60,319 nucleotides of DNA, from contig NZ_JAQGEI010000037.1 of assembly GCF_029017505.1 (NCBI RefSeq), positions 1-60,319 on the forward strand, given 5' to 3'. Source of the stretch: Sedimenticola hydrogenitrophicus. GTDB lineage: Bacteria; Pseudomonadota; Gammaproteobacteria; Chromatiales; Chromatiaceae. The translations under genes were made by a program, and so were the position numbers. Shown in pieces: positions 37,708-52,184 of this stretch; position 1 is the stretch's first letter; each line of letters begins with the position of its first letter. Under the pieces are notes generated by a model. It was not told the origin of the DNA. It saw only the letters and a list, made by a program, of their open reading frames with translations, and did not search any database.

Positions 37708-38367
37708 TTACAACAAGAGTGGTGCCGGATTGAAATAATGTTTACCGCTGCGCACGCTGCAGATCTGTTGCAGCAGCAACTGATAATCGCGCTCCCGCTC
37801 GATGGGATTGATCTCGGCCGCATTAATAATCAGCAAGGGGGACTTATCATAATGGTAGAAGAAATCGGTATAGGCGTCGCTCAGCCGCTTCAGATAAGCG
37901 GCCTCCATGCGCCGCTCCTGGGGGCGGCCGCGCTTCTGAATCCGCGCCAGCAGCACCTCGACCGGCGCCTGGAGATAGACCACCAGATCCGGCGCGGGCG
38001 CCTCCATCGAGAGTCGCTCGTAAACCTGTTCATACAGGTCCAGTTCCTGCGCATCCAGGTTGATCCCGGCAAACAGCCGGTCTTTTTCCAGCATATAGTC
38101 CGCCACCAGGGCGCGCCGGAACAGATCCTGCTGACGCAGCCCGGTCAGTTGCCGGCTGCGTTGAAACAGGAAAAACAGCTGGGTCGGAAAGGCGGCCTCC
38201 CTGCCATCATTGTAGAAACGCTCCAGAAACGGGTTCTCCTCCACCGCTTCCAGCAGGGTTTCGGCGGCAAAGCTCTGCGCCAGACGCTTCACCAGGCTGG
38301 TCTTGCCGACGCCGATGGGTCCCTCCACCACGATGTAGCCAGGCGGTGTGGCGACTGTGTCAGGCAT
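37708..38367 (-). CDS. deoxynucleoside kinase family protein
   Basis: A 219-residue P-loop kinase. The Walker A sequence GPIGVGKTS is at 16-24, and the EENPFLERFYND, QLFFLFQRSRQL and DYMLEKDRLFA segments match the deoxyadenosine/deoxyguanosine kinase group. It should phosphorylate a deoxynucleoside with ATP. The start overlaps the folK stop by 8 bp, so it is part of the pcnB-folK-panBC operon. This position is common in Gammaproteobacteria, but the substrate there is not firmly known. Confidence 0.87.
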   Translation of the reverse strand: MPDTVATPPGYIVVEGPIGVGKTSLVKRLAQSFAAETLLEAVEENPFLERFYNDGREAAFPTQLFFLFQRSRQLTGLRQQDLFRRALVADYMLEKDRLFAGINLDAQELDLYEQVYERLSMEAPAPDLVVYLQAPVEVLLARIQKRGRPQERRMEAAYLKRLSDAYTDFFYHYDKSPLLIINAAEINPIERERDYQLLLQQICSVRSGKHYFNPAPLLL

Positions 38368-38863
38368 AACGTTTCAGACCATCCTTCGGGCAATTGGCCA
38401 CCAGTATCGCCAGCGGGCCCAGCCCCGGTAACTCCAGCTCAGGCGCGATCTCCTGCAGTGGATAGAGTACGAACGCCCGTTCAGGCAAACCGGGATGGGG
38501 CACGCTCAGCGCCTCGTCGCTAATGATCCGATCACCATAAACCAGCAGATCCAGATCCAGTGTACGGGCACCCCAGCGCACCCCGCGGGTACGCCCCTGA
38601 GCCCGCTCGATGCGCTGCAGTTCGGCCAGCAGATCATGGGGTGCGAGCGTGGTATCGAGGGCCGCCACGGCATTGATATAGTCAGGCTGATCTGCCGGCC
38701 CCAGGGGGGGACTGAGATAGAGGCTGGAGCATTGCCGCAGCACGCTTTCCGGCAGCCGCTTCAGTGCGGCGCAGGCGTTGCGGATCTGCACCACCGGCTC
38801 CGCCAGGTTACTGCCCAGCCCGATATAGGCCGTGACCACGGGCTTGTCTGCATGTGCCTGCAT
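38360..38863 (-). CDS. folK: 2-amino-4-hydroxy-6-hydroxymethyldihydropteridine pyrophosphokinase
   Basis: A 167-residue HPPK transferring pyrophosphate from ATP to the pterin in folate synthesis. YIGLGSNL near the N-terminus and RWGARTLDLDLLVYGD (metal-binding aspartates) plus VPHPGLPERAFVL are diagnostic. It follows pcnB after 27 bp and overlaps the kinase gene. Confidence 0.95.
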   Translation of the reverse strand: MQAHADKPVVTAYIGLGSNLAEPVVQIRNACAALKRLPESVLRQCSSLYLSPPLGPADQPDYINAVAALDTTLAPHDLLAELQRIERAQGRTRGVRWGARTLDLDLLVYGDRIISDEALSVPHPGLPERAFVLYPLQEIAPELELPGLGPLAILVANCPKDGLKRYA

Positions 38864-38890: not shown

Positions 38891-40201
38891 CTAGCCCTGG
38901 CCGGCCGGCTTGGAGGGGCGTCTGCGCCGGCGCCGGCGCCGCTGGGGTTTCTCACCACCGCCGTTCGCCTGGCGGACCATCTGGTTGCGCTCCTCGCCAT
39001 CCTGCTCCTGGAAACCGGTCCACCAGTCTGCCAGCTCCTGATCGACCTCGCCCGCTTCCGCGCGCAGCAGGAGAAAATCGTAGGCGGCGCGAAAACGGGG
39101 ATGGGTCAGCAGGCGATGGGGGCGCTTGCCCGCGCGTTGTTCGAAGCGGTGCTGAAGATTCCAGATTTCCCGCATCGGGATACTGAACCGTTTGGGTATC
39201 GACACCCGCTCCAGTTGGGTCATGAGGACATCATTGCCCGCCTCCTGGATCGCCGGCAGGGGTGCTTCGCCGGCCTCCTGGAGGTGTTCCGCCAGCCGCC
39301 GCACCGGTTCCCACAGCAGCACCGCAAACAGGAAGGCGGGGGTTACCGGCTTGCCCTCGCGGATCCGGCTGTCGGTATTCTGCATCCCCCGGGTGACAAA
39401 GGTGATGGGGAATTCATGGTCTTCATGCGCCAGGCACTCCTCGGTCTCCGGGAACAGTTCACCAAACAGGCCGTAGTGGCGCAGCTTTTCAAAGCTGTGC
39501 AGCGCAACGCCCGCCATGAACAGCTTCAGTACCTCCTCAAACAGGCGTGCCGCCGGCACACTCTGGAGCAGGGATCCCAGTTCAAGCAGGGGCTTTTCAC
39601 AGGCCGGATTGATGATGAAACCGAGCTTGGCGGCAAACCGCACGGCCCGCAGCATGCGCACCGGATCCTCGCGGTAACGGGTCTCGGGGTCACCCAGCAG
39701 CCGCAGCACACCCGCGCGCAAATCCTCCATGCCACCGGCATAATCCACCACCGAGAAGTCTTCTATATTGTAATAGAGGGCATTGATGGTGAAATCACGC
39801 CGCACGGCGTCCTCTTCGATGGTGCCGTAGATGTTGTCCCGCACCAGCATCCCGTTTTCGGTCTCCCGGTCTCCCGGTTCGGCGGCATCCTGCATGCTGC
39901 GGAAGGTGGCGACCTCGATGATCTCCCGGCCGAAGTGAACATGGGCCAGGCGGAACCGGCGCCCGATCAGGCGGCAGTTACGAAACACCTCCTTGACCTG
40001 TTCCGGCGTGGCATCGGTGGCGACGTCGAAATCCTTGGGCTCACGGCCCAACAGCAGATCACGCACGCCACCGCCCACCAGGTAGGATTGAAACCCGGCC
40101 GCCTTCAGGCGATAGAGCACCTTGGTGGCATGGTCGCTGATATTCGCCCTGGAGATATTGTGTTCGGGGCGGGGAATGATTTGCAGGGTAGCTATGTTAA
40201 T
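38891..40201 (-). CDS. pcnB: poly(A) polymerase I, probably starting at AUU
   Basis: About 436 residues, adding 3-prime poly(A) tails that mark RNA for decay. The nucleotidyltransferase core has LVGGGVRDLLLG with KDFDVATDATPEQV, followed by RRDFTINALYYN and a basic C-terminal tail (RRRRRRRRPSKPAG). Similarity to the E. coli protein ([20 protein letters not shown]) reaches back to IIPRPEHNISRANISDHATKV, upstream of the first GTG at 40120. An in-frame TAA lies at 40210-40208. Between them there is no ATG, GTG or TTG: the options are ATA 40204, ATT 40201, ATA 40195 and CTG 40186. ATT is chosen because E. coli pcnB is known to use AUU and AAGGA is adjacent; the exact codon is inferred. Confidence 0.9.
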   Translation of the reverse strand: MNIATLQIIPRPEHNISRANISDHATKVLYRLKAAGFQSYLVGGGVRDLLLGREPKDFDVATDATPEQVKEVFRNCRLIGRRFRLAHVHFGREIIEVATFRSMQDAAEPGDRETENGMLVRDNIYGTIEEDAVRRDFTINALYYNIEDFSVVDYAGGMEDLRAGVLRLLGDPETRYREDPVRMLRAVRFAAKLGFIINPACEKPLLELGSLLQSVPAARLFEEVLKLFMAGVALHSFEKLRHYGLFGELFPETEECLAHEDHEFPITFVTRGMQNTDSRIREGKPVTPAFLFAVLLWEPVRRLAEHLQEAGEAPLPAIQEAGNDVLMTQLERVSIPKRFSIPMREIWNLQHRFEQRAGKRPHRLLTHPRFRAAYDFLLLRAEAGEVDQELADWWTGFQEQDGEERNQMVRQANGGGEKPQRRRRRRRRPSKPAGQG

Positions 40202-40208
40202 TATTCCT
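40193..40208 (-). promoter_or_regulatory. ribosome site and non-canonical start region of pcnB
   Basis: On the minus strand AAGGA (40209-40205 region) is followed by ATA ATT AAC ATA. The gap to ATT 40201 is 3 nt and to ATA 40195 is 9 nt, so spacing alone does not settle which is used. A rare start would hold PcnB at a low level. Confidence 0.6.
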
Positions 40209-40280
40209 TATGCACTTCAAAAAGATTGCGGCGCCCAGAGTGTACAGAATCACGCAACTAAAAAAAATGGTCATTACGAC

Positions 40281-40308
40281 TTGAGCCAAAACAAACTGTG
40301 GGTATAAT
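40281..40308 (+). promoter_or_regulatory. promoter of tRNA-Glu
   Basis: TTGAGC (40281-40286) and a perfect TATAAT (40303-40308) with a 16-bp spacer end 20 bp before the tRNA. Confidence 0.8.
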
Positions 40309-40328
40309 ACGCCACGCCCGAGTGCACT

Positions 40329-40404
40329 GCTCCCTTCGTCTAGTGGCCTAGGACTCCGCCCTCTCACGGCGGCAACAGGGGTTCGAGTCCCCTAGGGAGT
40401 ACCA
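40329..40404 (+). tRNA. tRNA-Glu (anticodon CTC)
   Basis: 76 nt including encoded CCA. The acceptor gctccct pairs with agggagt, the anticodon stem ccgcc/ggcgg encloses loop ctctcac (anticodon CTC), and the T arm has ggttcgagtcc. It aligns end to end with E. coli tRNA-Glu(UUC) but decodes GAG only, so another Glu tRNA should exist elsewhere for GAA. Confidence 0.97.
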
Positions 40405-40462: not shown

Positions 40463-40669
40463 GTAACTACTCACGCGGTCTGTAAGTGATTGGCCTGCCT
40501 TGCCGGCCTCGCACGATGGCTTGTTTCCCCGAATCCGGCCCCCTTTTCAGCGCCTGCCCAAACTCGCTTCGCTCAAACAAGGGCAGGCTTTAATCTGAAA
40601 AAGGGGCCGGATTCGAGGCGCCATCAAGATCGGCCAACAAGGCAGGCCAATCACCCCCCGAGTAGGTAC
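40463..40669. repeat. family C element, long form (207 bp)
   Basis: The ends gtaactactc...gagtaggtac are those of the short form. The centre carries an extra module of about 100 bp with arms cgaatccggcccc and ggggccggattcg and loop text cgcttcgctcaaac. It lies between the tRNA terminator and the flavoprotein gene. Its spurious small frame reappears in other copies. Confidence 0.88.
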
Positions 40670-40703: not shown

Positions 40704-42842
40704 TCACTCTCCGCGCCGCCAGGCGTGGAATCGTTCGACCCAACGCAGCACCCGCTCCGGGGCATGGGCCCGCTTCCAGTTGCCCGCGGCGTACTTGTTG
40801 GCCTCGGTCCAGGTGGGATAGATGTGGATGGTGCCGAGGATCTTGTTCAGTCCCAGGCGGTAGCGCATGGCGGTGACAAACTCGGCGATCAGGTCGCCGG
40901 CATGTTCACCAGCAATAGTGGCGCCCAGGATCTGGTCCTTGCCCGGCACGGTCAGCACCTTGACGAAACCGTGCGCCTCGCCGTCGGCGATGGCCCGGTC
41001 CAGGTCATCCAGGCCGTAGGTGGTCACCTCATAAGCGACCCCCTGCTCTTTCGCTTCCAGCTCATTCAGCCCCACCCGCGCCACTTCCGGATCGGTAAAG
41101 GTGGCAAAGGGGATCACCGAGTAATCCACCTTGAACTTGCGAAACAGGCCGAACAGGGCATTGACCGCGGCATACCACGCCTGATGGGCCGCAACATGGG
41201 TGAACTGATAGGGCCCGGTCACATCACCGCAGACATAGATGTTGGGGAAATTGGTTTGCAGGAACTCGTTGGCCTCCACCGTGCGGCGTTCGCTGATGCG
41301 CACCCCCAGCTCCTCCAGGCCGAAGCCGCCGGTATTGGCCAGTCGGCCCACCGCCACCAGCACCCGGTCGAAGGGGACCGGGACGGCCTCGCCCCGGTAC
41401 TCGGCCGTCAGGACCCCCTGGCCATCCACGATTTCAAACGATTTGGCGGTATGGCCTGCCAGGACATCGATCCCTTCCGCCTGGAATTGTGCCGTCACCC
41501 GCGCCGCCACATCTTCATCCTCACGGATCAACAGCCGCGGCGCCATCTCCACAATGGTCACTCGGGAACCAAAACGGGCAAAGCACTGGGCCAGTTCACA
41601 GCCGATCGGACCGCCCCCCAGCACCAGCAACCGGCCAGGCAGTTCACGCAACTCCCAGAGGTTATCCGAGGTGAGATAATCGATCCGCTCCAGACCGGGG
41701 ATCGGTGGCACAAACGGGCGTGCCCCGGTGGCGACGATAATATTCCGCGTGGTCAGGGTCTGTCCGTTCACCTCGACCTCATAAGGGGAGCGGATCATCG
41801 CCTCCCCCTCGATCACCTCCACACCCAATCCGCTGTAGCGCTCCACCGAGTCATGGGGCTCCACCGTTTCGATCACCCGCCGCACCCGCTCCATGATCTG
41901 CGAAAAATCGAACTCCGCGCTGGCCGATTTGAACCCGAACTCCGCCGCGCGTCGCGTCTGTGCCAGAAAACGGGCCGAGCGGATCAGCGCCTTGGAGGGG
42001 ACACAGCCGGTATTCAGGCAATCGCCACCCATCTTGTGCTTTTCGATCAGGGTCACCTTGGCCTTGACCGCCGCCGCGATATAGGCCGACACCAGGCCGC
42101 CGGAGCCGGCGCCGATGACCACCAGGTTGCGGTCAAACCGGGCGGGTTTCGGGTAGGCCTTGAGCGCCTTGCGCGCCTTGAGGGCGTCGAGCGTCTTGTG
42201 GGCGATGAGGGGAAACAGCCCCAGCAAGACAAAAGAGGAGATCAGGCCCGGTGACAAAATGCCGGAGAGCGACTCGAGCTGGCCCAACTGGGTGCCGGCA
42301 TTGACATAGACCAGGGTCCCCAGCAGCATGCCCAGCTGGCTGACCCAGGCGAAGGTGAGGGTCTTAAGGGTGGTGAGCCCCATCGCCAGGTTGATGACGA
42401 AAAAGGGGAACAGCGGCACCAGGCGCAGTCCGAACAGATAGAAGGCCCCGTCCTTCTCGATGCCCGCGTTGATCGCCTTCAACTTGTCGCCGAAGCGGTT
42501 CTGCACCAGGTCACGCAACAGGAAGCGCGAGATTAGGAAAGCCAGGGTGGCGCCCAGGGTGGAGGCGAAGGAGACCAACACGGTGCCCCAGAACAACCCG
42601 AAGATGGCCCCCACCCCCAGGGTCATCACCGTGGCGCCCGGCAGGGAGAGCGCCGTCACCAGCACATAGATCACGAACATGACCGCTGCGGTCTGTAAAG
42701 GATGGGCCTGGCGGTAGTCCTGCAGCGCCGCCTGCTGCGATTTCAGATAATCGAGACTGAGGTACTGCCCCAGATCAAAAATAAAAAACAGGCTGATCGC
42801 CAGCGCCAGCACGATCAGTGTCACTATCCGTTTGCGGTTCAT
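40704..42842 (-). CDS. TVP38/TMEM64 membrane domain fused to a mercuric-reductase-like flavoprotein
   Basis: 712 residues in two parts. Residues 1-225 form a TVP38/DedA-like membrane domain with about six helices (SLPGATVMTLGVGAIFG, RLVPLFPFFVINLAMG). Residues 235-712 are a class I pyridine nucleotide-disulfide oxidoreductase: the FAD motif VIGAGSGGL, redox-active C275-C280 (CLNTGC), the second GxGxxG-like VLGGGPIGCELAQ, FAD-binding YVCGDVTG, and a dimer-interface HIYPTWTE motif. It is probably a membrane-tethered thiol/disulfide or metal reductase using NAD(P)H; the substrate is unknown. ATG 42842 is chosen because ggggag lies 4 nt upstream. Confidence 0.88.
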   Translation of the reverse strand: MNRKRIVTLIVLALAISLFFIFDLGQYLSLDYLKSQQAALQDYRQAHPLQTAAVMFVIYVLVTALSLPGATVMTLGVGAIFGLFWGTVLVSFASTLGATLAFLISRFLLRDLVQNRFGDKLKAINAGIEKDGAFYLFGLRLVPLFPFFVINLAMGLTTLKTLTFAWVSQLGMLLGTLVYVNAGTQLGQLESLSGILSPGLISSFVLLGLFPLIAHKTLDALKARKALKAYPKPARFDRNLVVIGAGSGGLVSAYIAAAVKAKVTLIEKHKMGGDCLNTGCVPSKALIRSARFLAQTRRAAEFGFKSASAEFDFSQIMERVRRVIETVEPHDSVERYSGLGVEVIEGEAMIRSPYEVEVNGQTLTTRNIIVATGARPFVPPIPGLERIDYLTSDNLWELRELPGRLLVLGGGPIGCELAQCFARFGSRVTIVEMAPRLLIREDEDVAARVTAQFQAEGIDVLAGHTAKSFEIVDGQGVLTAEYRGEAVPVPFDRVLVAVGRLANTGGFGLEELGVRISERRTVEANEFLQTNFPNIYVCGDVTGPYQFTHVAAHQAWYAAVNALFGLFRKFKVDYSVIPFATFTDPEVARVGLNELEAKEQGVAYEVTTYGLDDLDRAIADGEAHGFVKVLTVPGKDQILGATIAGEHAGDLIAEFVTAMRYRLGLNKILGTIHIYPTWTEANKYAAGNWKRAHAPERVLRWVERFHAWRRGE

Positions 42843-42960
42843 CTTACTCCCCTGGGTCATTAACGTTTCTTATGGCTATTGACCGCACTACGACTCTTTT
42901 TCTTTCGGTCCGCCCAATCTTAACCGATATTCTTACGGCGCTGCCTTATGAAAATCAGCC

Positions 42961-43585: not shown

Positions 43586-43793
43586 GTTAACTACTCACGG
43601 GGTGATTGGCCTGCCTTGTTGGCCGATCTTGATGGCGCCTCGAATCCGGTCCCTTTTTCAGATTCAAGCCTGCCCTTGTTTGAGCGAAGCGAGTTTGGGC
43701 AGGCGCTGAAAATGGGGCCGGATTCGAGGAGACAAGCCATCGTGTGAGGCCGGCAAGGCAGGCCAATCACTCACAGATCGTGTGAATAGTTAC
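43586..43793. repeat. family C element, long form, before valS
   Basis: The ends gttaactactc and gtgaatagttac enclose the same central module as 40463-40669, in the opposite orientation relative to the module arms. Confidence 0.85.
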
Positions 43794-51977: not shown

Positions 51978-52184
51978 GTAACTACTCACGGGGTGATTGG
52001 CCTGCCTTGCCGGCCTCACACGATGGCTTATCTCCTCGAATCCGGCCCCATTTTCAGCGCCTGCCCAAACTCGCTTCGCTCAAACAAGGGCAGGCTTGAA
52101 TCTGAAAACGGGGCCGGATTCGAGGCGCCATCAAGATCGGCCAACAAGGCAGGCCAATCGCTCACAGACCGGGAGAGTAGTTAC
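51978..52184. repeat. family C element, long form (207 bp)
   Basis: The ends gtaactactc and gagtagttac enclose the central module cgaatccggcccc...ggggccggattcg, in the same orientation as 40463-40669. It fills the gap between the peptidase and DUF2520 genes. Confidence 0.88.

Follow-up and report, generated by a model that had tools for sequence, protein, structure and literature searches.

Where does translation of pcnB, the gene of poly(A) polymerase I, begin in Sedimenticola hydrogenitrophicus, if its reading frame offers none of the usual start codons ahead of the conserved protein? The window considered here is the whole stretch of 60,319 nucleotides of contig NZ_JAQGEI010000037.1, in which the gene lies on the minus strand. 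Its frame reads TAA (40210-40208) GGA ATA ATT AAC ATA GCT ACC CTG CAA ATC ATT CCC CGC and is then open as far as the TAG ending at 38891, which gives 438 residues. From this TAA down to the GTG at 40120-40118, the first standard codon in frame, ATG, GTG and TTG are absent, and the lack of a standard start claimed in the initial annotation is therefore confirmed. The mechanical list of open reading frames reports pcnB as 38891-40120, with 409 aa and a GTG start, which is the truncation that had been foreseen for a gene caller limited to ATG, GTG and TTG. Read from the ATA at 40195-40193 (minus strand), the start proposed below, which lies five codons after the in-frame TAA, the coding sequence covers 38891-40195 and encodes 434 aa.

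The identity of the product was established by profile and structure comparisons. NCBIfam TIGR01942 (PcnB) is matched with 550.7 bits against a cut-off of 305.65, and position 1 of the profile falls on residue 10 of the 438-residue frame, so that homology sets in about nine codons past the in-frame TAA, within the ten codons or so that had been estimated from the sequence. The alignment with the E. coli PAP I structures (3aqk, 3aql and 3aqm) starts at residue 9 of the same frame. Pfam hits cover the head domain (PF01743), the RNA-binding domain (PF12627) and the arginine-rich C-terminal domain (PF12626, 165.3 bits), and the translation contains LIGRRFRLAHV, which by eye agrees with the poly(A) polymerase signature given in PMC12985599, [LIV][LIV]G[RK][RK]Fx[LIV]h... 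The equivalog model for E. coli-type PcnB (NF008634, more than 702 bits) was not reached, with 520.9 bits, and it was passed by none of the 370 genomes of the class, while the E. coli control passed.

The codon usage ahead of the conserved protein was then compared within the genus. Nine genus genomes were searched, S. hydrogenitrophicus included, and pcnB was found in eight of them and not in G007 (78% complete). Among named organisms, the closest relatives belong to Sedimenticola, S. selenatireducens BK-1 and DSM 17993 included, and to other Chromatiales. Codons were numbered backwards from the I of ISRANIS, which makes ATA 40195 codon -13. When the upstream codons of relatives are aligned, the check that the initial annotation had proposed, codon -13 is ATA in all eight genomes; in a set of 14 loci that takes in other genera as well, 13 have ATA there and L014 has ATC. 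Seven of the eight genus genomes lack any standard start after the upstream stop and ahead of the conserved block. The exception is L010, whose frame is open for 79 codons and holds four standard codons, at -70, -52, -46 and -41. In S. hydrogenitrophicus the Shine-Dalgarno-like (SD) sequence TAAGGA (40205-40210, minus strand), whose TAA doubles as the in-frame stop, ends 9 nt upstream of ATA 40195. Throughout the genus this sequence is TAAGGA (GAAGGA in L008 and a weaker TATGGA in L010) and stands 8-9 nt ahead of the ATA.

Substitutions between all pairs of the eight genomes switch from a non-coding to a coding pattern at ATA 40195. The 12 codons before it carry 0 synonymous and 189 non-synonymous differences, distributed as 127/107/76 over the three codon positions, and thus behave as non-coding DNA without coding-type periodicity. 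The ATA itself shows no difference at all. Codons -12 to -9 have 32 synonymous and 31 non-synonymous differences (positions 7/12/51), and codons -8 to +11 have 154 and 59, respectively (positions 37/7/192). The invariance of the third base of the ATA, next to strongly variable third bases just downstream, fits selection on the codon itself. The same counts bear on translation from GTG 40120, which would yield a 409-aa PcnB and leave the upstream codons untranslated. Being the first standard start in the frame, this GTG is the obvious choice for a gene caller, but most of the 25 codons from the ATA to the GTG are conserved as protein: the 20 codons before the GTG look coding, given the excess of synonymous over non-synonymous differences and the third-position bias, and the codons ahead of the GTG align with E. 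coli PAP I and fall within TIGR01942 from its first position. A start at this place would also remove the conserved IIPRPEHNISRANISDHATK stretch. GTG 40120 was therefore rejected, and we regard it as a very improbable start. It does not lie inside the N-terminal helix of the catalytic domain, as had been stated, since the PolyA_pol head domain spans residues 42-169 of the frame and the GTG, at residue 30, precedes it by 12 residues.

Other codons between the stop and the conserved block compete with the ATA. The ATT at 40201-40199 (minus strand), favoured at first, and the ATA at 40204-40202 are both in-frame AUH codons (AUA, AUU or AUC) after the stop, and the latter is kept in seven of the eight genus genomes. 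The ATT is TTT in L005-L007, of which L005 is a sister with 98% identity, and GTC, AAT or GAT in L008-L011, and it stands only 3 nt past the GGA. ATA 40204 is AAC in L007 and adjoins the GGA directly, so that TAAGGA would be unable to serve it. A start at either of these two codons is accordingly improbable. CTG 40186-40184 was rejected as well, because it is present only in S. hydrogenitrophicus and L005 and is replaced by a proline codon (CCC or CCG) in L006-L011. The start of pcnB is thus most likely ATA 40195-40193 rather than ATT 40201, as judged from comparative sequence; of the earlier proposal of AUU (or AUA) initiation, the AUA part is favoured and the AUU part is rejected.

It could also be supposed that the missing start is an error of sequencing or assembly, or that pcnB is reached by frameshifting or coupling from a mini-ORF, as GTG 40215 opens a four-codon frame (GTG CAT AAG GAA TAA) just ahead of the ATA. 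Against this, the arrangement is repeated in independent isolates and metagenome-assembled genomes, S. selenatireducens BK-1 and DSM 17993 (L034 and L039) among them, which also makes unlikely a sequencing error hiding an ATG, named beforehand as an observation that could overturn the claim. The GTG of the mini-ORF is found only in L004-L006 and is GTT or GTA in L007-L011, and coupling from it was rejected for this lack of conservation within the genus. Taken together, these explanations have a very low probability. What characterizes the Sedimenticola gene is, on the one hand, that neither ATG, GTG nor TTG is able to serve as its start and, on the other hand, that an AUH codon is conserved at one place with an SD sequence at a workable spacing.

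The occurrence of such starts was surveyed over the class Gammaproteobacteria. A total of 247 pcnB loci were collected; named contigs (80) and a single E. coli record supplied part of them, and the rest came from searches of class genomes, in which 338 and 336 of 370 genomes were matched. Seven loci were skipped because they lay at a contig edge, had an open frame or lacked the motif; of the 240 usable ones, 28 were redundant and were dropped, which left 212. Since loci were taken from the best-scoring part of the matches (141 loci besides the named ones, from 87 family codes), distant families are under-sampled. In a strict test, a locus was called certain if no ATG, GTG or TTG is possible in frame upstream of the conserved block. 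This was the case in 37 of the 212 non-redundant pcnB loci, compared with one of 191 for the downstream neighbour folK (38360-38863, minus strand; TIGR01498, 141.5 bits against a cut-off of 54.1) and none of 105 for the gene that follows folK (37708-38367), which we take to be a deoxynucleoside kinase; the absence of standard starts in pcnB therefore exceeds chance. The test is conservative, as it misses E. coli, whose AUU start is known. Where an in-frame stop within 22 codons forces the start to lie near, 23 of 34 loci lack a standard start and ATG occurs in three. Besides the named loci, certain cases are spread over 14 of the 87 family codes sampled. On a FastTree tree, the certain state requires at least 23 changes, compared to 34.4 on average when the labels are shuffled, which indicates that it is clustered but not due to a single inheritance, or that it is often masked by chance upstream codons.

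An AUH codon is found at -12 to -15 in 34 of the 37 certain loci. In L236 it is an ATT at -40 with AAGGA, and two loci without a standard start, L031 and L139, show no clear AUH start either. Within the certain frames an SD run of at least 4 precedes 33 of 67 AUH codons, versus 118 of 609 other codons (p=3e-7). At column -13, over all 212 loci, ATA occurs 16 times, ATT 20, ATC 20, ATG 2, GTG 4 and TTG 0 times; such a run accompanies 41 of the 56 AUH codons compared with 27 of 150 codons that are neither AUH nor standard (p=2e-13), and two of the six standard ones. A start chosen by a blind scorer, which penalises AUH codons and accepts any aligned SD spacing from 0 to 8 with equal weight, was ATG in 73 loci, GTG in 46, TTG in 30 and AUH in 63, i.e., a standard codon in 149 of 212. 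This scorer recovers the known AUU of E. coli pcnB as a positive control; in S. hydrogenitrophicus it ties ATT 40201 (-15) with ATA 40195 and reports the ATT by order alone, a tie that is due to its disregard of spacing.

Some standard codon is present in frame upstream of the conserved block in 175 of the 212 loci, and the isoleucine at column -13 might on this ground belong to a longer N-terminus with an earlier start and be no more than a conserved residue of it. With standard starts, such an extension is impossible in S. hydrogenitrophicus and in the 36 other certain loci, where a stop precedes; within the genus, the codons upstream of the ATA are free of coding constraint, and SD sequences are enriched ahead of AUH codons. 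A residue of this kind thus has very little probability as an explanation, and AUH initiation is the reading followed here. AUH starts of gammaproteobacterial pcnB appear, from these comparisons, to be recurrent and common without being universal. The claim that rare-start control is conserved across distant Gammaproteobacteria can be upheld to the extent that such starts are found far across the class; with 37 of 212 loci certain, it does not extend to every member.

For E. coli itself, RefSeq annotates pcnB from ATT, a start reportedly described by Binns and Masters in 2002. The two genes resemble each other in that an AUH codon, accompanied by an SD-like sequence, takes the place of a standard start. 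They differ in position, since the E. coli AUU, at -38, precedes the Sedimenticola position (-13) by about 25 codons and is carried on an N-terminal extension that Sedimenticola lacks, while the Sedimenticola AUA directly precedes the conserved domain. The order of G146, the top class genome by the E. coli-type model NF008634, was sampled for comparison; it is presumably E. coli's own order, with members of up to 79% identity to E. coli PcnB. The search matched 54 of 59 genomes, of which the best 30 were made into loci; one was redundant, and with E. coli added the set again amounts to 30. At the E. coli start column these 30 genomes have ATT in 16 and ATC in five, L289 among these 21 being probably a chance alignment, and six further ones have ATT one codon after this column. 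Excluding L289, 26 of 30 thus carry ATT or ATC at the position of the E. coli AUU, or ATT one codon past it. ATG was found at this column in none of the 30, and L286, which has a gap there, begins with an ATG further down. A box of GAGGTGTAC(C/T) directly followed by ATTTT is recurrent (e.g., L251, L283, L284, L291, L299 and L303). The blind scorer chose an AUH codon in 15 of the 30 and a standard one in the other 15, and only L307 lacks any standard codon under the strict test. As the E. coli-type genes are longer at the N-terminus, the weak start is seen in both N-terminal forms.

The best explanation for the Sedimenticola locus is therefore that pcnB is, with high probability, translated from AUA 40195-40193 under the TAAGGA SD sequence. 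This reading is supported by the lack of a standard start, the genus-wide invariance of the AUA, the onset of coding constraint at this codon and the spacing of the SD sequence, as well as by the presence of AUA, AUU or AUC, mostly with an SD sequence, in this position or the homologous one of E. coli in many gammaproteobacterial lineages. The initiator fMet-tRNA would presumably read the AUA by tolerating a mismatch with the third base of the codon. The AUU start of E. coli pcnB has been reported to hold poly(A) polymerase low, and the weak codon in Sedimenticola may be kept by selection to the same effect. Initiation factor IF3, a factor that discriminates against AUH codons, would set the rate of pcnB initiation. 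By analogy, the AUA in Sedimenticola would limit PcnB synthesis and make it sensitive to IF3. The near absence of AUG at column -13 (two of 212 loci versus 56 with AUH) can be taken as a comparative sign of selected low translation of poly(A) polymerase, and suggests that evolution keeps pcnB translation deliberately weak.

The gene of IF3 itself, infC, is the closest known parallel. In E. coli it is subject to IF3 discrimination and autoregulation. It resembles pcnB in an AUH start that is kept in relatives, and differs from it in that infC autoregulates; to our knowledge, no feedback loop has been described for pcnB. In the infC of S. hydrogenitrophicus the likely start is an ATC that directly follows a TGA stop, with GGAGG upstream, an arrangement found in all six genus genomes with a full locus (L272, L259, L261, L263, L267 and L268), where the sole standard codon is an ATG eight codons further in. 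Used as a positive control, infC lacked a standard codon before the point tested in 11 of 29 usable loci, which indicates that the method detects a known AUH case. The infC start is given as ATT for E. coli in PMC5472188 and as AUA for Staphylococcus aureus in PMC13009471.

Natural AUA initiation has also been tested experimentally in S. aureus ccpN and citZ, according to PMC13009471, where AUA starts are described as giving reporters about 10% of the AUG level in poor medium and, for ccpN, up to 30% in rich medium. These genes are comparable to Sedimenticola pcnB in their start codon, but they are other genes of another phylum and have extended SD motifs. Repression of non-standard starts by IF3 is described in PMC5472188, which includes the experimentally tested, IF3-repressed GTC start of Streptomyces sigR. 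The likeness of sigR to pcnB consists of a non-standard start that keeps a regulatory protein low and is misannotated in available genomes, whereas its codon is GTC and not AUH.

The AUU starts of E. coli pcnB and infC were already known, and the AUA of pcnB and the recurrence across the class extend that knowledge, as new within the open-licence literature searched. In that literature we found no report of class-wide AUH starts of pcnB; the original study of the E. coli AUU, which lies outside this scope, may mention relatives. The weak start that was initially known from a single E. coli gene thus appears recurrent in Gammaproteobacteria, with a codon that varies between AUA, AUU and AUC, and pcnB becomes a candidate for a natural AUA-start gene outside Firmicutes. 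For genome annotation, callers limited to ATG, GTG and TTG would cut off or misplace the N-terminus of PcnB in many genomes. More tentatively, and with the odds rather against it, pcnB and infC might form a small and old gammaproteobacterial set held on AUH starts, in which the level of IF3 would set the amount of poly(A) polymerase and thereby link both the tailing and the decay of RNA to the condition of the initiation machinery. Drift of the codon between AUA, AUU and AUC could then occur, while AUG would be removed by selection.

Upstream of pcnB, the block TGTACACT (40239-40246, minus strand) is conserved in all eight genus genomes and may represent the -10 element of the gene; it was not reported by the promoter scan. 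A tRNA-Glu(CTC) gene is located divergently at 40329-40404 on the plus strand, with a promoter-like site (TTGAGC-16-TATAAT) at 40281-40308. A near-symmetric TATTATA/TATAATA box in the intergenic region (40196-40328) might serve both pcnB and the tRNA. The folding energy of the RNA around the pcnB start is ordinary (z -0.34), and the Rfam search returned the tRNA and one chance-level match. The neighbourhood of tRNA-Glu and pcnB is unexpectedly conserved, as a divergent tRNA-Glu lies beside pcnB in 143 of the 211 non-redundant loci for which 400 nt or more of upstream sequence is available (142 CTC and one TTC). In L093, L119, L123 and L125, the ATG of pcnB follows a few bases past a TATTATAC box, which is maybe also the -10 element of the divergent tRNA, and a leaderless pcnB mRNA is possible in these four, judging by this spacing. 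Leaderless transcription from the -10 box of the tRNA was dropped as a general explanation, because a crude pattern test was satisfied by only two of 143 loci, some single loci nevertheless resembling it.

Three further observations concern the neighbouring genes and repeats. The one folK locus of 191 without a standard start (L061) reads TGA ACC CTG GAC GCC TGG before IGLGSN, and perhaps uses the CTG as its start. A palindromic element of about 170 bp with nested inverted repeats, presumably REP/MITE-like, has three copies in the window (40490-40660, 43599-43766 and 51997-52159) and at least 40 in the genome, with 93-100% identity (40 of 124 first-look candidates scored). Finally, the gene at 40704-42860, upstream of pcnB, appears to be a fusion of a membrane N-terminal part, which we assume to be DedA/TVP38-like, with an oxidoreductase that resembles MerA and dihydrolipoyl dehydrogenase from about residue 237.
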